From NCBI GenBank assembly GCA_949751835.1, contig CATKHK010000021.1:186001-250000 (forward strand): DNA of 64,000 nt, in the 5' to 3' direction. Positions 24,853-59,879 of the stretch are shown here, piece by piece (positions within the stretch are counted from its first letter, which is position 1; each line of letters starts with the position of its first letter). This stretch comes from Blepharisma japonicum (taxonomy: Eukaryota; Ciliophora; Heterotrichea; Heterotrichida; Blepharismidae). Under the pieces are notes generated by a model. The model saw only the letters and a program-made list of their open reading frames with translations, was not told where the DNA came from and did no database searches. Both the position numbers and the translations under genes were made by a program.

Positions 24853-26112
24853 ATGAAAGCTGTTCTCTTTTTATGCTCTTTATCAATATTCGTTCTTTCT
24901 GAGAAAACTCTTAATAACCAGTTTTTAACTGGTGTTCTCGAAGGTGCTGACTTGATCACGAACGTTGACGCAGCAACTTGTGATTATTCACCGAGCGAAG
25001 ATGCTCACAATAATTTATTCGACAGCGCTTGGGAAAAGTTTGTCTTCGATTTATTTGATATTACAGTCAATTGTCAGTTTGGGCACGCATTAAGACCACT
25101 TACTAACCTTAGATCTTCTAAGGAAATGATGGCAAGAGCTCAGCAAAGATTTGAAGACGCCAAAGCTAAAGGTCAGTTTCCTGTACTCCATGACTTGAAT
25201 ATGTATGGAAAAATCCTTGGGAAGTGGCTTACTCAATATATAAGAATGGCTTCTCCAAGTGCTTTTAAGTTTGCCGATGATGATTCGTCATTGGTAGCCT
25301 TCGCTGACAGCTCTGCATTGCCTGTTGCATTTTTTCATGGGATTAACGGAGCTTGCGCTGATGAAAATTATAAGGTGTTTGAGAATTACCTAAGATTTCA
25401 GCTTGGGACTTATGTCAGTTGCATTGAGATTGGTAATGGATATTGGGCAAGCAATTTGATGCCAATGACTGAGCAAGTAAATGAAGCCTGCACCAAAGTA
25501 AAAGCTGACCCTAATTACCAAGGAAAATTCAATTTAATTGGCATTTCTCAAGGCGGGATGATTGCGAGAGGAATCCTGCAGCTTTGTCCTGGTCTTCAAG
25601 TCAATAATTTAGTGACTATTGGATCACCAGTTATGGGAGTTAGAAAATTCCCAGAATGCGAAATTGGTGTAAGATGTGCCATGTATGACAATGCTGCCAA
25701 ATTAGGAGTCTATTCTAGTGCTTTTCAAGCTCTTGGGCCTGGCGGTTATCTAAAAGATCAATATCAGTATAAAACTTATCTTAAAAAGAGTAGTTTTTTG
25801 GCCGATTTAAATAATGAGAGACATATCAATAAAAAATATATCGATGCCTACTTGAGCTTAGAACATTTCGTGCAGTTTTACTTTACCGAAGATAGCGTTG
25901 TTATTCCTAAACAGAGCGAATGGTTTGGCTATTTCAAAGAAAATTCTGAGGTAATGCTAGCTTATAACGAAACTTCAGACTATATAAACAACTACCTAGG
26001 CTTTAGAACTATGGATGAACAAGGGAAGATCATTAGAGTTTTGATTGAAGCTGGACACTGCGATTTGACCGCCAGGCAAGTTAAACGATATCTGCTTCCT
26101 TATCTTCGGTAA
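24853..26112 (+). CDS. Palmitoyl-protein thioesterase 1-like lysosomal hydrolase, copy 1
   Basis: 419 residues with a signal peptide (MKAVLFLCSLSIFVLS). The C-terminal 270 residues match PPT1, which removes fatty acyl groups from cysteine in lysosomes. The triad is Ser232 in GISQGG, Asp347 in TEDSVVIPK and His402 in AGHCDL; FFHGINGAC is the oxyanion-side loop. Ahead of it lie about 140 residues not present in animal PPT1 (306 residues), with WEKFVFDLFDITVNCQF and HALRPLTNLRSS. Tandem with a paralogue 203 bases downstream. No TGA and no intron. Confidence 0.93.
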   Translation: MKAVLFLCSLSIFVLSEKTLNNQFLTGVLEGADLITNVDAATCDYSPSEDAHNNLFDSAWEKFVFDLFDITVNCQFGHALRPLTNLRSSKEMMARAQQRFEDAKAKGQFPVLHDLNMYGKILGKWLTQYIRMASPSAFKFADDDSSLVAFADSSALPVAFFHGINGACADENYKVFENYLRFQLGTYVSCIEIGNGYWASNLMPMTEQVNEACTKVKADPNYQGKFNLIGISQGGMIARGILQLCPGLQVNNLVTIGSPVMGVRKFPECEIGVRCAMYDNAAKLGVYSSAFQALGPGGYLKDQYQYKTYLKKSSFLADLNNERHINKKYIDAYLSLEHFVQFYFTEDSVVIPKQSEWFGYFKENSEVMLAYNETSDYINNYLGFRTMDEQGKIIRVLIEAGHCDLTARQVKRYLLPYLR

Positions 26113-26315
26113 CCATAGATGAATAATTAAAAATATTAAAACTAAGATAAATATCTTTAATTAATATTATTTATATAAAGAAACATAATCCAATCCTGGA
26201 TTCTGACATTATTTTTTATAAAATATAAGCCCTTTATGCTAAATTTAAAATATTCATATAAATATTGACTCTCTTGAAATTCCTCATATTTGTGACTAAT
26301 ATTGGTAGAAATAAA

Positions 26316-27572
26316 ATGAAAGCCGTTCTCTTTTTATGTGTTTTATCATTCGTCCTTTCTGAGAAGGCTCTCAATAACCAGTTTCTAACTGGAGTTCTTG
26401 AGGGTGCTGACTTAATCTCAAAAGTTGACTCTCTAACCTGCGATTATTCACCAAGCGATGATGACCAGGAGAATAAATTCGCCAGCGCCTGGGAGAAGTT
26501 TGTTTTCGACCTCATTGACATTACAGTTAATTGCAAGTTTGAGCACGCTCTAAGACCACTTACCAACCTTAGAACTTCTGAAGAAATGATGGTTAGAGCT
26601 CAACAAAGATTTGAAGACGCTAAAGCCAAAGGTCAATTCCCAGTATTATCTGACATCAACTTGTATGGGAAAATCCTTGGATCATGGCTTACCCAGTACA
26701 TAAGAATGGCTTCTCCAAGTGCTTTTAAGTTCAGCTATGAGTCTCCTGCATTAGTCGCCCTAGCTGATAGCACTGCGTTGCCTGTCCTATTTTTCCATGG
26801 AATTAATGGAGCTTGCACTGATGAAAACTACGTAGAATTCGGGGATTATCTAAGAGAACAACTTGGAACCTATGTCTCTTGCATCGAAATTGGCAATGGA
26901 GCCCAGTCAAGCATCTTGATGTCAATGACTGATCAAGTCAATGAAGCCTGCACCAAAGTAAAAGCTGACCCTAATTATCAAGGAAGATTCAATTTAATTG
27001 GAATTTCCCAAGGTGGAGTTGTGGCTAGAGGAGTTTTCCAGCACTGCTCTGGTCTTCAAGTCAATAATTTACTGACTATTGGATCACCAGTTATGGGCGT
27101 TAATAAATTCCCTAACTGCGAACTTGGTGTCAAATGTGCCATTTATAACAATGCTGCTAGATTAGGAGCTTATTCTAGCGCTTTTCAAGCTCTTGGGCCT
27201 GGAGGATATGTTAAAGATCAATATCAGTACGAGACTTATCTTAAGAAGAGCAGCTTTTTGGCCGATTTAAATAACGAAAGAAGCATCAATCAAAACTATA
27301 TTGACCTTTATTTGAACTTAAAATATTTCGTGCAATTTTACTTCACCGAAGATACCGTTGTTATTCCAAAGCAAAGCGAGTGGTTTGGCTATTTCAAAGA
27401 AAATTCGGAAATAATGCAACCTTATAACGAAACCTTGGACTATGTAAACAACTACCTTGGCGCCCAAAACATGGATGCTGAAGGAAAGATTATTAGAACT
27501 TTAATTGAAGCTGGGCACTGCAAATTGACTCATGAGCAGGTTGACCAATACCTTATTCCATATCTTCAATAA
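26316..27572 (+). CDS. Palmitoyl-protein thioesterase 1-like lysosomal hydrolase, copy 2
   Basis: 418 residues; start taken at ATG 26316, which gives the same signal peptide as copy 1 (MKAVLFLCVLSFVLS). All active-site motifs are kept: GISQGG, TEDTVVIPK, AGHCKL. About three quarters of residues equal copy 1 by eye, with most change in the N-terminal extension and surface loops. The pair is a tandem duplication with both copies apparently functional; such expansion of secreted hydrolases is common in phagotrophic ciliates. Confidence 0.93.
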   Translation: MKAVLFLCVLSFVLSEKALNNQFLTGVLEGADLISKVDSLTCDYSPSDDDQENKFASAWEKFVFDLIDITVNCKFEHALRPLTNLRTSEEMMVRAQQRFEDAKAKGQFPVLSDINLYGKILGSWLTQYIRMASPSAFKFSYESPALVALADSTALPVLFFHGINGACTDENYVEFGDYLREQLGTYVSCIEIGNGAQSSILMSMTDQVNEACTKVKADPNYQGRFNLIGISQGGVVARGVFQHCSGLQVNNLLTIGSPVMGVNKFPNCELGVKCAIYNNAARLGAYSSAFQALGPGGYVKDQYQYETYLKKSSFLADLNNERSINQNYIDLYLNLKYFVQFYFTEDTVVIPKQSEWFGYFKENSEIMQPYNETLDYVNNYLGAQNMDAEGKIIRTLIEAGHCKLTHEQVDQYLIPYLQ

Positions 27573-31637: not shown

Positions 31638-33831
31638 TTACTCAATAACCGCATTCGATGATTCTTCATCCGCACCGAGGTACTGATGTATCAGTTCCAT
31701 TAACAGCTCTGGCTTGGCAGGTTTCAGCAAATAAGTTGCCATACCATACTCAAAGCATTTTTGAATTTCCTCTTCAGAAGAACTTGCTGTATAGCCAATT
31801 ATCGCAGGCATATGTCGGATAATTTGACTTTTGTGCATTTCATGAATTTTCTTAGTTGCTTCTCATCCATCAATAACTGGCATATGGCAGTCCATAATAA
31901 TAACCTTGATATATTTCCCTTTATTATTTTGCTTCTGCACAATATGCAATGCTTTAGTCCCACTATCCGCTTCTATATACCCTACTTGATTTTTGTCTAG
32001 AATAGCTCCTAAAATGATTCTATTAAAGTCGTTATCATCTACGATTAGCACTTTTGCTTGAGTAAGGTTGTTAAGACATGAGCCTCTTCTAGCTTTCATT
32101 ACAATTGGAGATGTCAAGCCTTCGTCAACTAGACCCATATCAGATTCAGTTAAAGCAAACTCTAATTTTTCATTCAAATCTAAGTAAAACGTAAATTTTG
32201 AGCCTTTTCCTTCACGAGACTCCACCTGGATTGATGTACCGTTTAGGGCTTTCGCTAAGATTCCTGATATATATAAACCTAAGCCAACACCTTGAGGGTT
32301 GTAATTACCTGAGTTAGATGTAGAAAATGCAGTGAAAAGTGAAGCAAGACGAGACTGTGAGATCCCAGCACCTGTATCTGTGACTGAAAATTCAATCCTA
32401 TTAAAATGACTTGTAAATACGCATACCTCAATTGAGCCGGCAGAGGTGAACCTAAAATAAGGAATACTTCAAGCTATTTCCGATAAGATTTACCAAAATT
32501 TGTCCAATTCTCATTGGGTCAGAGTATATTAAATGAGGCAAGGTCGGGTCTAAACGAATTCGCAAATCAATGTGCTTAAGCTTAGCTTGGATTTCAAAGA
32601 GCTTGCATGACTCTTTGATGACGTCTCTAACATCAAAATTTGATTTATTTAAATTAAATGCACCTGCCATAATTCTTGAGTGATCTAACAAATCATTTAC
32701 AAAAGAAAGAAGAAGATGAGAAAGTACGTTGATTGTCTGCAATTTATCAACTGTTGCAGTTTTTAGCCTAGACCCTTCCTCCTCTATTATTTGTTCTTGA
32801 AAAAGAATTATTGAATTCGCTGGAGCCCTCAATTCATGTGACACAAAATTCAATAGATCCGTTTTCGCTCTGCATTCGGAAGATAGGGATTCGAGTTCTA
32901 TCAAATGATTAACATTTCTTGAAAAAATTACTAAAGATGGCTTACTGTTTCAATGCATTTTTTTTAGTTTTCACTCCAAAAGATTGTCTCTTAATTTCGA
33001 TATCCCTATCAAAGCTTCCTCATTTATAGTTAAAGTGAAGGCTGCTTTAATGTCATCTATTATAAATGAGGAATCTGTTAAGTGATTTAATTTTTTCCCA
33101 TTCCAATATGATTGACAAGAAATATTGTGAAGTAACTGATTTTCTTCACACTCAAAAAGCGCTAAAATATTTGAATTCAAATATTCAATTTTCAAGTCAT
33201 CTGAAAGCACCAAAAAACCATCACAAAATGATTGACATAAAAAATTCAGACACCTTTCTGTTTCCTCTGCTTTTTTTTGAAGAGAAAATGTTAGCAATCC
33301 ACTTTTAAATGTTGTACTAATATTCAGAAACTGGATGATTAAGCAGCTTGATACGACAATATAAGGAGAAAGATTACTAGTATAGCTCTCAGTAGTTTTC
33401 AAAATATCAAAAATATATCATTGATATATATGCTTAGCTATTAGAACACAGCAGAAAAATCTTGATTTTACACATGGAATTTGTAAAAGAAGTAAGTTAA
33501 AGGTTGCACCAATGATAAATATGGCTCTGTGCTCAGCCAGCGTAGTTCTTGAGAAATACCACATCAGAAAGCTGCAAAACTCAGTTGTCGAAATAACAAG
33601 AAATATTGTTCGAGAGTTGCTATTTCGTTTTATTGAGGCTGTTGAACAAATAACTAGCAAAGTAAGTACTATAGCCTTGAAAACTAAAGTGAAAACTTGG
33701 CTAGGTAATAAAAAGTCAAAGGAAAGCACTAGAAGGCCTGATAAGGCAGAGCTTATGATATGTGAAAATTTCAAATCTTCAATTTGTCTGGTAAAGTCGT
33801 CATCTCACCATGAGTTAGTTATCCCAGGCAT
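31638..33831 (-). CDS. Membrane hybrid histidine kinase with receiver domain
   Basis: complement(join(31638..32451,32468..33831)), 725 residues. Five or so hydrophobic segments fill residues 20-165, followed by a PAS-like region (SFCDGFLVLSDDLKIEYLNS). The kinase core has the H box NFVSHELRAPANS with His332, the N box ILVNLIGNSLKFTS, and G boxes VTDTGAGIS and GVGLGLYISG. The receiver has VLIVDDNDFNR, Asp642 in IIMDCHMPVIDGWEA and the Lys of YLLKPAKPE. The 16-nt intron GTATTCCTTATTTTAG lies exactly within the N box. This is a two-component phosphorelay sensor; ligand unknown. A separate phosphotransfer protein would be expected elsewhere. Confidence 0.95.
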
Positions 33832-39462: not shown

Positions 39463-40968
39463 ATGGCAACTCAGCTTCCTTCTAATACCGCAAACGGTGA
39501 CTCTGAAGAAATAGTTGCAAAATTAGTATCTAGCAATGAGAAAACAGCTCAAACATATGACATTCGACCATCAACTACAAGCGTCACGTTTGGTAGAGCT
39601 ACAGGATCTACCATTATTTTGCGAGATGTCAAATGTAGTGGTAAACACTGCACAATAAATGTTGTAAAAGCAAATGACGACTATGAATTTTTGATTGAGG
39701 ACACTTCATCAAACGGAACTTTTATTAATGGAAATCTAATTGGCAGAGGAAAGTCCACTAAAGCTGCTTTTGGTGACATTTTGACTATTCTTAGAGAGGC
39801 ACAGGTAGGCCCAGATGATAAAATCGAATTTGTGATCCAAAAACCAACTCAAAAAAGGGCGCGCGAGCCTGAAGAAGACAAATCTAACAAGAAATCCAAC
39901 ATGGACTCAAAGCTAGAAGAAGAAATCAAATGTTTAATATGCATGGAAGTCATGTATCAGCCTGTCACCTTATTCCCCTGTCTACACAACTACTGTGGTG
40001 GCTGTTTTTCAGACTGAAAGCAGCGTTCTCTAGAGTGCCCTAACTGCCGTACCAAAGCTAAAGAAGTCAAGAAAAATCATTTTTTGGTCAACTTAATCGA
40101 AATTTTCTTAAAAGAGCACCCTGAAGCACAACGACCAGCAGAAGAATTAAAAGATTTAGATGATCATAACGAGTTTAAAGCAGATAGAGTTAAATTAGCT
40201 AAAGACGGGTTTAGCTCAGATGGAAGCGCTTCATCTGAGGAAGAAGAAAAAAAGACACCTACAACTCCTGCTAGAGGCAGAGGCAGGGCTAAAGGAATCC
40301 AAGGAGGAACAAGACCACTTGCAGTAGCCCAAGCACAAAATATCCGCCAAAATATATGCAGACAATGCCAAAGGCGAGTAGATAATTTTCAATGTCAAGG
40401 AAACCAAGCACATGTGCAATGTTCAGCCTGCCATCAATATATGCCATTAAGGCCGAATAATAGACAAAGCTGCGAGGTCTGCAAGAAATACTTTTGTAAT
40501 TTATATTGGCAAAGTGGAGCAAAATGTAGAAATGGTCTTGGACAAATAGAAACTTATACGCAAACAACGTTTACAGCGATCCCTCCCAAGGCAATTAATG
40601 AGAATAAGTTTGAACAAACTGTATTAGGAGACTATTTAAGGGCTAAAAGGATAAATTTCCAAAGAGTGGCGAATGAAATGCTGACAGCAATGGAACAAAA
40701 TCAGTGGAATATGAATTTAAGTAAGATTAATGTAGATGGAAACCAAGTCATGCTGCATAAAAACAGCTTGGTGTGCCCTGAGTGCGCTTTATCAGTTTGG
40801 AATGAATTATTATACAAATATAGAGAAAAAATTCCTCCCAACGAACTACCAGCAATAGTAGGACAAAGACAAGACTGCTGGTATGGCAGAGAATGCAGGA
40901 CACAAATTCATAATATTGTGCACGCACAAAAGCTAAACCACATTTGTCCACCAGTAACCTCTATTTAG
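39463..40968 (+). CDS. CHFR: CHFR-type E3 ubiquitin ligase (FHA-RING-Cys-rich/PBZ), copy 1
   Basis: 501 residues, one TGA Trp (FSDWKQRS). FHA domain at about 30-130 (VTFGRATGST, SGKHCTINV, SSNGTFINGN), RING at about 160-205 (CLICMEVMYQPVTLFPCLHN, CGGC, CPNC), then an acidic stretch, a zinc-binding Cys-rich region, and a C-terminal PBZ-like finger CWYGRECRTQIHNIVHA with NHIC. This is the domain order of CHFR, a mitotic checkpoint ubiquitin ligase that binds phospho- and poly(ADP-ribose) signals. Tandem paralogue follows 76 bases downstream. Confidence 0.93.
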
Positions 40969-41044: not shown

Positions 41045-42622
41045 ATGGAAAATCACACGGAAAACAATAGTTCTCAACATAAAACTGGAAAAATTGTAGC
41101 AAAGCTGGTGAGCAATAATGAAAAAACAGCAGAAAGTTATGAAATAAAAGAAGATGAAAAACAAATAATAATTGGAAGAAGCCCAAAGTCAAGTATAAAA
41201 CTAAATGATAGTAAGTGCAGTAAAATACATTGCATAATAGGAATTATAGATTCTAACAATGAAATTGAATTTTTGGTTGAAGATTTTTCATCAAATAACA
41301 CTTTTATTAATAATAACCCTGTAACACTTACCTAGATCGGGAAAGGAAAACTTTCAACTGCTCAATTTGGCGATATTTTAACAATTCTCAGAGAAAAGCA
41401 GGTTGGCCCAGATAAAAAAATTGAATTTGTTTTCCAAAAATCAACAGAAAAGCGTCCGCACGATAATGACGAGAATTTTTCGAATAAAATTAAAAAAACA
41501 AGCGCATCTTTAGAAGAACAGTTTAAATGTCAAATTTGTATGGGAATAATGTATCAACCAGTCACATTATTTCCATGTTTGCACAACTTCTGCGGTGGAT
41601 GCTTATCAGGCTGAACATCTCAGTCATTTAAATGTCCAAATTGCAGAGTAAAAGCAGAAGAGGTCAGAAAAAATAATTTTTTGACTGAGCTAATTGCTAC
41701 TTATTTAAAGGAAAATCAAAATGCTAGAAGAGATGAAGAAGAGCTGAAGGATCTGAAAGCAAGAAACAAGTTTAACAGAGAAACAGTTAAATTAGGGGTT
41801 GATATAAAACTGGCAAATGAAAATGATATAGAGGATGGGGAAGAATTGACGATGTTTAATATTGGAGACTATGTAATAGAAGAAGAAAATTATGATGACT
41901 GAGATATGGAAGAAGTAGAAAAATCGCCCAAACGACTGCCTAATCCTTATGAAATTAAAAGAGGAATAGGGCCTAATAGAAGAAGGCCTGTACAAATTGA
42001 TAGAAATAATTACGAAAAAACTGACTGTTTGCAATGTGAAAATATAATTGATGGATTTCAATGTCCAAGAAATCAGAATCATATACAATGCAATAATTGT
42101 CATAGATATATGCCACAAAGGCCTGGAATGAATCAAGATTGTGCTATCTGTGGCACACACTTCTGTAATAAATATTGAAAAAACGGTCTAGGGTGTATGG
42201 ATGGGTTAAATGAAATTATCAACAATATAAGGTTTTTCAATAAAATTCCTAAAGAATCTATGAAGGAAAATCCAATTGAGCAAACTATCTTGGCTGATTA
42301 TATAAATAATTATCAGATAAAATTTATGGATATTGCTAATGAGATGATACAAGCTATGGAAATGGAACGATGAAATATGAAAATAAGAGATGGGAAAAAT
42401 GTTATTTTGAATAGAAATTCACTTGTCTGTAAAAAATGCTCAAAGTTGGTATGATGTGAGCTAATTTATAGATTTAGAGAGAAAATTCCTAAAGATAGGT
42501 TGCCAGTTTCAATACTTCAAAAGAAAAATTGTTGATATGGGAGAGAGTGTACAACACAAACACATAACATTGAGCATGCGATGAAGTTGAACCATATCTG
42601 TGCTCAGGTAAAATCTATATAG
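41045..42622 (+). CDS. CHFR-type E3 ubiquitin ligase, copy 2, with one 15-nt intron
   Basis: join(41045..41320,41336..42622), 520 residues with several TGA Trp codons. Same domain order as copy 1: FHA (IIIGRSPKSS, CSKIHCIIG, SSNNTFINNN), RING (CQICMGIMYQPVTLFPCLHN), Cys-rich region (CLQCENIIDGFQC, CAICGTHFCNKYW) and PBZ-like CWYGRECTTQTHNIEHA. Intron GTAACACTTACCTAG sits inside the FHA domain at a place where copy 1 has no intron; splicing gives INNNPIGKGKLSTAQFGDIL, matching copy 1. The FHA glycine of SSNG is Asn here. More diverged and AT-richer than copy 1. Confidence 0.9.
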
Positions 42623-56200: not shown

Positions 56201-57325
56201 CTAACTCAATCCACCAATTACACTTATAAATGGGGTCTCAACTTTTGAATCATTAAGACTTATCGAACTTAAAATGCTTTTTGGGTCATTTTTATCGTCT
56301 TCTATCATTTTTGAAATATTAAAATCCTTGTTTAGAGCTTCTTCAGCTTTTAGTTCTTCGCCATTAAGCCTTCGGGACTGAGATCGTCTGATTTTATTAG
56401 AGATTTCTAAATCAGACTTTTGGATATAAATACCTCTATCACCAAGAATTTTTTCTATATACCTTATGGTGGCTCTACTTTCTAATAATAACAAAGTCTC
56501 TTCGTAATTATAGGTGGCATCGCAACCTACTTTTTCAATTAAATAAACGAAAATTTCATGATAATCCCTGTGCATATTTTTCCGGCTTCCAGCCGCAGTT
56601 ATTTGTATAACACTTTCATTTCTTTTATTTTTTGCTTGAAAATTGGCATGGCAAGTTTCATATAAAAATTTTATCATAGGATAATTTCCATTTCTGCATG
56701 CAATCATTGCACAATTTTCCCCTTGATGCTCATCCTGATAATCAATGTCCAAATAATATGGCACATACCCAGCATTCCGAAAATAGGTATTCAAATAGTC
56801 AATTATATTAATATATCCTTTATCACATGCACTCAAAACTGCGGTAACTGAAGATTTTATAGGCATATCGGAAAAAGCAGCCCTTTCAAAATCAACAGTT
56901 AAGCTTTCTCCAGTGCTAACTTGAGGAGTAGTGTCTTTGTTGCTAGTCAAGTAAATCGGTAAATAATAAATCAAAATTTCTAAATACCCTTGTTGGCAAA
57001 TTATGTCAATTGAAGTTATCCCATGTTTCTGAAAAAGCTTTTCCATGATACCTATATCAGCGCCTAGTCTTTTATGTAAATATTTAAAAACTTCGGTACG
57101 GCCAAGTCAAAGAGCATAGCCTAGAGGGTTTAGCTTTATTTCTTGTACTGCTGTGATTGAATCATTTAAAAGAGAGAATTCTGTGATAGTCTTGGATTGA
57201 TCTACAGATGATTTAATTAGATGCTCAAGTGAATGAGGGTTGTTACGTTCAATCGCCTCTTTAATTCTTAGGTTTAAAGCTTCAATATTACTTTCGTGCT
57301 GGTTTTTGCTACAGGAACAGCCCAT
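56201..57325 (-). CDS. Ankyrin-repeat protein with N-terminal lipidation signal
   Basis: 374 residues; start set at ATG 57325, giving MGCSCSKN, a signal for myristoylation with adjacent palmitoylated cysteines. One TGA Trp (YALWLGRTEVF). Ankyrin-like helices: HGITSIDIICQQGYLEILIY, SSVTAVLSACDKGYINIIDY, GENCAMIACRNGNYPMIKFL and ESVIQITAAG. The C-terminal 100 residues are charged. A membrane-bound scaffold is likely. Confidence 0.85.
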
Positions 57326-57645
57326 ATACAACTTTTATATTATTTAATATAAATTTTTGCTTAATTAATTCGTCTTAATCTTGTCGAGAAATTCTACATT
57401 CTTTTAAATTTCAGCTCTTCATAAATGGGCAAGCAGTTTTCAGGTTTTAAAATCAATCTATTAAGACAATAACGGCCCAGGCGATAGAAGCAAGTAAGTT
57501 ATTTTTTAGTTAAATTCTCTCCCAGAATTTATGGGAATTTCCATTTATTATATTTTCATAACAAAACAAATTTCAGGCTCATTTACTGGTCTCCTCCATA
57601 TCAATTATTGCAATAATTCAAAAAATATATTTTAATTATTTTACA
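57326..57645. other. Intergenic; one short coding-like patch
   Basis: About 320 bases. Around 57475-57620 a plus-strand frame with a possible 16-nt intron (GTAAGTTATTTTTTAG) reads KTITAQAIEA and continues to a TAA, but there is no ATG ahead of it, so no gene is called. Confidence 0.3.
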
Positions 57646-59022
57646 TTATCTTTTCACACAACTGAAACTTGATAGCAAACTATCAAAAGTGCTTTCCTTC
57701 TTTACTGGTTTTTTTCTTTTACCTGAATGTTGCACAGGTGATTCCAAAATTATTTTAAGCTGGTTTAATTCTCTTATTTTTGCTTGCAAAGCTGACTGTG
57801 ATATTTCTAAATTGTCATAATTTTTTTCTTCAGATTCTACTTTATTTTCCTCAACTTTTTCAGTGTCTTCTCTATCAAGCTTAACTAAACCAATCCCACT
57901 TGCAGAATTTCTATAGTCTTCTTCATCTTTAAATTCTTTAAATGTGCATTTTTCAATTAAATCATTTATGATAAATTCATATCGTGTATCCCCAAACTCC
58001 ACTTCACATATAAGTCCACTGATATTTGTAATTACCCCATTTCCATAATCTGGATGGGAAACTACATATGCTTCCTCAAAATCAGGATTTCGGGCATATT
58101 TTCTTATTCATTCATGCTTTAGGATTTCTTTTATATTAGGTCTAAGATGTGCATCAGTTAATAAACTTCGAATAAGGGATTTCGCTTCATCTGAAATTCC
58201 ACTGCCAAAATTAAATGTCTTATCTAGGATCAGCTTGCATTTGGCTCGGTCACTTTTTGCTCTAAAAGGTTCATGGCCGTGCAGCATTTCATATAAGAGA
58301 ACTCCTAGTGCCCATATGTCAACTTCATAAGAATAGTGGTCTAAATTTAAGACTTCTGGGGCCATATAGTCAAGGGTCCCGCAAAAAGTTGACCGTTCTT
58401 CACTTCCAAACGCACATCATCCAAAATCACAAATCTTTATTATATCATGATTACCTAACAAAATATTTTCAGGCTTTATATCTCGATGAATTACTTGCTG
58501 CTCATGCAGGTAATTAATTCCCAGGCAAACTTGCGTGAAAAAATTTCAGGCTTCGATTTCAGTTAATTTTCTTTTTCTTTTTATATAAGTAAATAAGTTG
58601 CCTTGCTCAGCATATTCAAGGACTAAATAAACATTGGTAGAATCTTCTAAATGATCATAGAGATTAATGATATTTCTATGGCTTAATGATCTATGAATTG
58701 ATATTTCTCTGTATAGAGTTTTCAGTGGAATTTTGGTTTCAATTAAACTTTTGCTGATTGATTTTAATGCAAGTTTTTCTCCTTTTATTGTTGTAATTAG
58801 CCTGACTTCTCCATAAGATCCTCGACCGAGTTTATAAGAGTTTGGATTTGATACAATTTGAAGATCCTCTAAAGTATAAATGTGAGGTCGGCAGTGCTTT
58901 GAGTGGTTTAGCTCTCAGTCTAATTTTAAGCAAGCTTCTGAGCAATATCTAGCCATACAGCAGTTCCTGCATACAATGGTTTCAGAAGATAAACTTGAGC
59001 AATCTGGATTGCAGCATTCCAT
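57646..59022 (-). CDS. MYND zinc finger fused to Aurora-like protein kinase and a tudor/SH3-like tail
   Basis: 458 residues from ATG 59022, continuous through four TGA Trp codons. Residues 3-44 form a MYND finger ([29 protein letters not shown]). Residues about 55-315 form a complete kinase: [47 protein letters not shown] and [14 protein letters not shown]. The DFGW plus CGTLDYxxPE signature is that of Aurora kinases. A small beta-barrel-like segment follows ([20 protein letters not shown]), then an acidic coiled tail. The MYND-kinase combination is unusual; MYND fingers usually bind Pro-rich partners. Active-site residues Lys, HRD Asp and DFG Asp are all present. Confidence 0.92.
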
Positions 59023-59879
59023 CTTATATTGTATACGTTATTTTAATATATTGTAATAAATCTTTTAGGCTTTAATAAATTGAATATTAATCAAAACCTC
59101 ATTTTAAATGTCAAACTAGATAATAAAAGCTAAAAATTCAAAAATTGATCAAAAAAATATTTCGAAATTATATATACTTAGATGATTTTTTTGAAAAAAT
59201 AATACTTATGAAACACCCATGAAAATGGCTAAAAGATATAATCTCCAAAGCTTTAGTTTTAAATTTATCAATTCAATGGATGATTTATCTAGTTAAAATG
59301 TGAATATTATATCTGAACTCTTAAACTGTATTCCAAATTCAGCATCTATTTTAATACAAAATAAAATCAATTATTTCAATAGCATTTTTATTTAAAAGTA
59401 TGGTGACTGGTGAAAAGGCATTTATCATTTGAACTTATACTGATTTTACTATAAAAAATTTCATATTAATGCGTATAGTTAATGGAGACAATATTCCATA
59501 TATATAATTATAGTTTATAAATGGTCTTATAATACTAAAAACATTATAATTGAATATCAAATTTACCAAAATATTTTATTCTTTTCAATTTTTAAAAGAA
59601 TATTTAAATCTGAGCTCTAAATCATTTTATATCATTTTCATATTTTTATAAGTTACCGTTTCTAATTATAATTTAATTTTCTTTTCTGAAATATAGCCTA
59701 AATTCCTATAAAGCCTCCTCAATATATTTTTCATGTCAAAACCTCTTCTATCTTAATTTTCAATATTCAAATAATTTTCTGAAATTTTAAAAAATATCCT
59801 ATCCATTAACCTAAAATCACCAATATGACTGATAAGCTTATATATAATAATTAGTCCTCAAGAGATTATAAACCTGAAT
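59023..59879. other. Long AT-rich spacer between divergent genes
   Basis: About 860 bases upstream of both the MYND-kinase and the next gene. A 38-codon frame (59208-59324, MKHPWKWLKDIISK...) exists if TGA is Trp, but its composition does not stand out. No gene called. Confidence 0.5.

Follow-up and report, generated by a model that had tools for sequence, protein, structure and literature searches.

How Aurora and Polo kinases are directed, through partners or through boxes, is well known, and we know of no zinc-finger dock for this kinase group. The MYND finger has been described with a C4-C2HC consensus ligand set whose first pair is spaced C-x2-C (PMC3555993) and with a peptide site holding three conserved non-zinc residues, Tyr, Gln and Trp, which are Y540, Q546 and W550 in BS69 (PMC4742278); in one paper, zf-MYND is given seven animal-specific partners (PMC2394772). 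The C-terminus of PcrA/UvrD is reported to bind RNA polymerase and has been compared with tudor domains (PMC3797733). As for the heterotrich ciliates, a massive kinome expansion is stated for Stentor, and according to the same account Aurora inhibition advances or delays the later stages of its regeneration (PMC9371601).

In a 64-kb window of Blepharisma japonicum DNA (the whole stretch that was analysed), parts resembling these kinases, the MYND finger and the PcrA/UvrD C-terminus are found in one protein. The gene lies on the minus strand and runs as one intact ORF from an ATG at window position 59022 to a TAA at 57646, exactly the span given by the original prediction. The order proposed there, a MYND finger followed by a kinase domain and a tail, is present in this single open frame. 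The features are the following:

57646..59022, minus strand: whole ORF, 458 aa with TGA read as Trp, stop-bounded, ATG start and TAA stop.
58891..59013, minus strand: MYND finger, residues 4-44 (Pfam PF01753; PDB match to the CBFA2T1/ETO MYND).
58105..58836, minus strand: Ser/Thr kinase domain, residues 63-306 (Pkinase; PDB Aurora A), with K87, E106, D181 (HRD) and D199 (DFG).
58354..58428, minus strand: Aurora-like activation segment, residues 199-223, opening with DFGW (from alignments).
57970..58068, minus strand: predicted four-strand beta-meander, tudor/SH3-like, residues 319-351 (AlphaFold2 with low pLDDT, Foldseek, UvrD-tudor profile).
57649..57897, minus strand: C-terminal region, residues 376-458, with a predicted helix at 409-427 (very low confidence) and a basic patch.

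The ORF was translated with NCBI table 4, in which TGA is Trp and TAA and TAG are stops; UGA is also given as Trp in Blepharisma stoltei (PMC9942806). Long open stretches numbered 43 when TAA and TAG were read as Gln, 29 when TGA was read as Trp and 15 under the standard code, statistics that are insufficient by themselves to fix the code because a one-stop code gives more long open stretches anyway. The assignment of TGA to Trp is made because three of the four in-frame TGA codons (W36, W159, W202 and W305) fall on conserved Trp positions of relatives: W36 aligns with the MYND Trp of ETO, while W202, in the DFGW motif, and W305, in the H-x-W at the kinase end, align with Trp residues of Aurora A. 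By its TGA=Trp code, as deduced from these alignments, the ORF is a ciliate-type gene of the heterotrich kind.

The frame is closed by a TAA at window 59040-59038, starting 18 nt ahead of the ATG, and no GT..AG candidate of 15-16 nt, the predominant intron size in B. stoltei (PMC9942806), occurs within 58850-59300, a span covering 278 nt upstream of the ATG and 173 nt of the gene from there on; finger and kinase thus have one uninterrupted frame in common. Inside the ORF, 11 candidate introns of 15-18 nt were counted, five of which were spliced in silico: the 16-nt candidate 58065-58050 makes the protein end at 324 aa, a 17-nt candidate at 355 aa and two further candidates at 389 aa, and the 15-nt candidate 57899-57885 leaves 453 aa. 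All the truncating candidates were rejected, because the unspliced frame is open to 57646 and retains the barrel motif.

The zf-MYND match (PF01753) reaches 27.7 bits (E 2.9e-6) when residues 1-46 are scanned alone, past the Pfam cut-off of 22.7, and 19.2 bits, under that cut-off, within the scan of the full protein. The nearest PDB relatives of the finger are the ETO/CBFA2T1 MYND (E 0.018) and then DEAF-1 (E 0.43). Its eight zinc-ligand positions are complete (C4, C8, C18 and C21, then C27, C31, H40 and C44), a set that would be expected to bind zinc, and when the six frames of the window were searched with a regular expression for Cys/His spacing of the MYND kind, there was a single match, at the kinase gene. 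Eight Cys/His ligands and two of the peptide-site residues, Tyr and Trp (Y26 and W36 by alignment with ETO), are shared with the MYND fingers of ETO/CBFA2T1, DEAF-1 and BS69/ZMYND11, from which the present finger differs in its first pair, spaced C-x3-C, in Leu32 at the position of Gln and in its fusion to a kinase. The finger therefore lacks the full Tyr/Gln/Trp set of the PXLXP-binding MYND subset. Since the residue replaced by Leu is the hydrogen-bonding Gln, PXLXP recognition is doubtful, and so is the earlier suggestion of recruitment by Pro-rich partners; a role in protein docking is likely.

The Ser/Thr kinase domain is complete, matching Pkinase over its full length (residues 63-306, E 9.8e-74), and all five catalytic and activation residues that were checked are present (K87, E106, D181, D199 and T212), T212 being aligned with the activation-loop Thr of Aurora A. 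From these residues the kinase is apparently active. In an NCBIfam scan of the full protein, 18 kinase-type rows were returned, each far under its cut-off. The closest PDB kinase is Aurora A (E 5.4e-53), and the best 60 of 2770 matching PDB sequences are all Aurora A, by name or synonym. The Aurora signature that had been proposed for the activation segment was also seen, in the form of DFGW and T-x-C-G-T-L-D-Y, the latter within the longer Aurora pattern R-x-T-x-C-G-T-x-D-Y.

The position of the kinase relative to Aurora and Polo was assessed with a reference set of 18 kinase domains, four from the PDB output and 14 unverified sequences. BLAST places Cdc5 (an unverified sequence) first, with 42% identity and 187 bits, and Aurora A second, with 40% and 181 bits; HMMER reverses the two (Aurora A 182.5 bits, Cdc5 181.3 bits). 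Four trees were computed: one with the C20 model on the full alignment, one without the activation segment, one without the three longest rows and one under LG+G4. In the C20 tree the Blepharisma kinase, on a long branch (1.46), is sister to four Auroras (84/87), whose clade excludes it (96/93), inside an Aurora+Polo group (92/91). Once the activation segment is removed, the kinase, PLK4, Cdc5/PLK1 and the Auroras form one unsplit fork (90/90); leaving out the three longest rows gives a similar unsplit fork of the kinase, Aurora and Polo (85/90), and under LG+G4 the group of all three is not recovered. The kinase is accordingly grouped with Aurora and Polo in three of the four trees, stands outside the four-Aurora clade in all of them and is sister to it in one. 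The label "Aurora-type" used in the original prediction rests on the activation segment, because the sister position is lost without those columns; it describes that segment well and does not extend to membership of the Aurora clade. The sequence is best read as an Aurora/Polo-group kinase whose activation segment is Aurora-like.

The same data bear on the possibility that the gene is a true ciliate Aurora orthologue or paralogue to which a MYND finger and a tail have been added, and which does the work of an Aurora in division or regeneration but is targeted in a new way. With human Aurora A and B, yeast Ipl1 and Arabidopsis AUR1 it has in common the kinase fold, DFGW, T-x-C-G-T-x-D-Y and 36-40% identity, and this possibility is favoured by the Aurora-like letters of the activation segment, by the PDB ranking and by the sister position in the C20 tree. 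Moreover, at the eight columns where the four Auroras agree on one letter and three Polo kinases on another, the Blepharisma kinase has the Aurora letter in five, the Polo letter in one and neither in two. Of the five Aurora-letter columns, however, four are C-terminal to HRD, including two within the activation segment; the sister position does not survive removal of that segment or of the three long rows, or the change to LG+G4; and the kinase differs from the Auroras in standing outside their clade, in having an N-terminal MYND finger and a C-terminal barrel region and in being without the canonical Aurora N-terminus. True Aurora descent is thus considered rather unlikely, although it is the alternative that survives best.

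The tail was modelled with AlphaFold2 in single-sequence mode, once as an 87-residue piece and once at full length. Strands at residues 319-323, 327-335, 338-343 and 346-351 are predicted in both runs with low confidence; the tail-piece model has a mean pLDDT of 51.0 (70 in its best 10-residue block), and the full-length model (mean pLDDT 33.8) is unusable beyond the tail strands that agree with the tail piece. A fifth strand (residues 378-381) appears in the tail-piece model and is absent from the full-length one. Neither Pfam, scanned to E 10, nor NCBIfam assigns the tail to a family; a CarD-type match at E 0.13, under the cut-off, appears in the full-length Pfam scan only. Among PDB sequences the tail has no credible match (best E 0.5). 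The Foldseek search gave as top match the UvrD C-terminal domain 7egt_B (probability 0.99, with a weak E of 0.093), the PcrA tudor domain 5dma at rank 5 and, at lower ranks, several Hfq RNA-binding folds with E 0.6 and above; none of its 665 matches reaches E 0.001.

With a profile of 31 UvrD-type tails the Blepharisma tail scores 14.0 bits, a value reached by none of 2000 shuffles (best 7.2), and the ORF comes first among 328 window ORFs (11.2 bits, E 0.0048, with the runner-up at 4.0); with a two-sequence UvrD profile the tail scores 5.1 bits, equalled or exceeded by three of 2000 shuffles, and the ORF is fourth among window ORFs (2.4 bits). The core aligned to the UvrD-type tails is 10 residues long. 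The tail shows some likeness to the PcrA/UvrD tudor-like domain in the motif V-x-H-P-x-[YF]-G-x-G, in the predicted four-strand meander and in the top Foldseek match, and differs from it in belonging to another protein and another domain of life, in the weak Foldseek E and in having no match to PF21196 (PcrA/UvrD tudor) to E 10, whereas the tails of E. coli UvrD and PcrA do match this family. Of the "tudor/SH3-like tail" originally proposed, the four predicted strands with the look of a small beta-barrel are retained, and a Pfam tudor family, which would have joined MYND and Pkinase in the domain search, was not found. The tail is probably a tudor/SH3-like, protein-binding barrel, as far as the models can indicate the fold. 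The accompanying idea of a reader of chromatin or RNA marks finds no support in the searches and models made: the best structural match is a bacterial UvrD domain, RNA polymerase is the reported ligand of the PcrA/UvrD C-terminus, and no result pointed to histone marks. Given the Hfq folds lower in the weak Foldseek list, at E 0.6 and above, the tail may conceivably bind RNA. Beyond the barrel, the basic patch KRKKPVKK (residues 435-442, window 57720-57697, minus strand) is a possible nuclear-localisation-type signal.

Among 30 other window ORFs, a selection from the 63 of at least 120 aa (the kinase ORF being one of the 63), no further Pkinase or MYND gene was found at E 0.001. The ORF at 32452-33831 (minus strand) has a HisKA match (histidine-kinase phospho-acceptor domain) of 26.1 bits, just under the cut-off of 26.9. 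The gene adjoining the kinase gene (56201-57331, minus strand) encodes an ankyrin-repeat protein, where initiation at an ATG near the start would yield MGCSCSK, which could be a myristoylation/palmitoylation signal. On the plus strand, the ORF at 246-2204 encodes a B12-dependent class II ribonucleotide reductase, recognised in Pfam by RNR_Alpha and the RNR-II insertion domain and closest among solved structures to the triphosphate reductase 1l1l (E 2.7e-98); to our knowledge this is unusual in a ciliate nuclear gene, and it is possibly a transfer from bacteria. Also on the plus strand are a tandem pair of palmitoyl-protein thioesterase genes (24853-26112 and 26265-27572) and two neighbouring genes (39463-40968 and 41540-42622), both with RING-finger matches and zf-CRD; the first adds an FHA domain and, slightly under the cut-off, a PBZ match. 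We take the two to be tandem CHFR-like checkpoint ligases.

No relatives of the whole protein were confirmed in viral and prokaryotic contig collections, nor of the kinase domain alone in the viral one, an absence that says little, given what these collections contain. Among the open-licence papers listed, none gave a fitting MYND kinase of ciliates or protists; a Stentor kinome preprint, which announces novel domain architectures in its title, may already describe this order. The kinome expansion stated for Stentor (PMC9371601) and the failure to find a relative with the same order would both suit a second alternative, namely that the gene stems from a kinase expansion general to ciliates and that its finger and tail arose by accident in one species and do little. 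The scope of the collections deprives the second point of most of its weight, and the zinc ligands, the catalytic residues and the open frame have all been kept, features that would be apt to decay in an idle fusion; an accident is therefore judged somewhat less likely still than Aurora descent. Finally, descent from a Polo kinase, with finger and barrel taking over docking from polo boxes since lost, is improbable: it is favoured by the top BLAST match to yeast Cdc5 (an unverified sequence), the Polo kinase of highest identity at 42%, by H110 and the stretch EISIHRSL, common to the query and PLK1, by likeness in the C-helix region and by constrained trees that are not rejected on the full alignment (p-AU 0.116 with Cdc5, PLK1 and PLK4, 0.278 with Cdc5 and PLK1 only), but the Polo grouping is not the best tree, DFGW (against DFGL) and CGTLDY (with D218 against Asn) are not Polo letters, and no polo box family was matched in Pfam scans of the full protein and the tail to E 10, whose filters drop most weak matches.

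The explanation that we favour, with fair confidence, is that of a lineage-specific Ser/Thr kinase of the Aurora/Polo group, catalytically competent by its sequence and aimed by the MYND finger and the barrel as two protein-binding modules, the whole being best read as a new combination of known parts. In such a kinase, the N-terminal finger would dock on a partner protein, with a specificity probably unlike that of the classical PXLXP site, and the C-terminal barrel would bind protein as well, so that the two modules in the same chain would supply the targeting and fix the kinase to its partner proteins. Phosphorylation of T212, by the kinase itself or by an upstream kinase, would activate the enzyme, and a nucleus is its possible destination, given the basic C-terminus; partners and location are deduced from the domains. 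A further and more tentative proposal, which we regard as possible rather than likely, is that of a heterotrich kinase class near the Aurora/Polo split, where the MYND finger and the UvrD-like tudor barrel replace INCENP/TPX2-type activation or polo boxes and a zinc-finger dock chooses the substrate.

The weight of the finding is moderate, because it concerns a single gene whose function is predicted from sequence alone. If the reading is true, the MYND finger and barrel of an Aurora/Polo relative would amount to a further means of aiming this group of kinases, and a kinase of such a kind could be a player, or a confounder, in regeneration of the Stentor type under Aurora inhibition.
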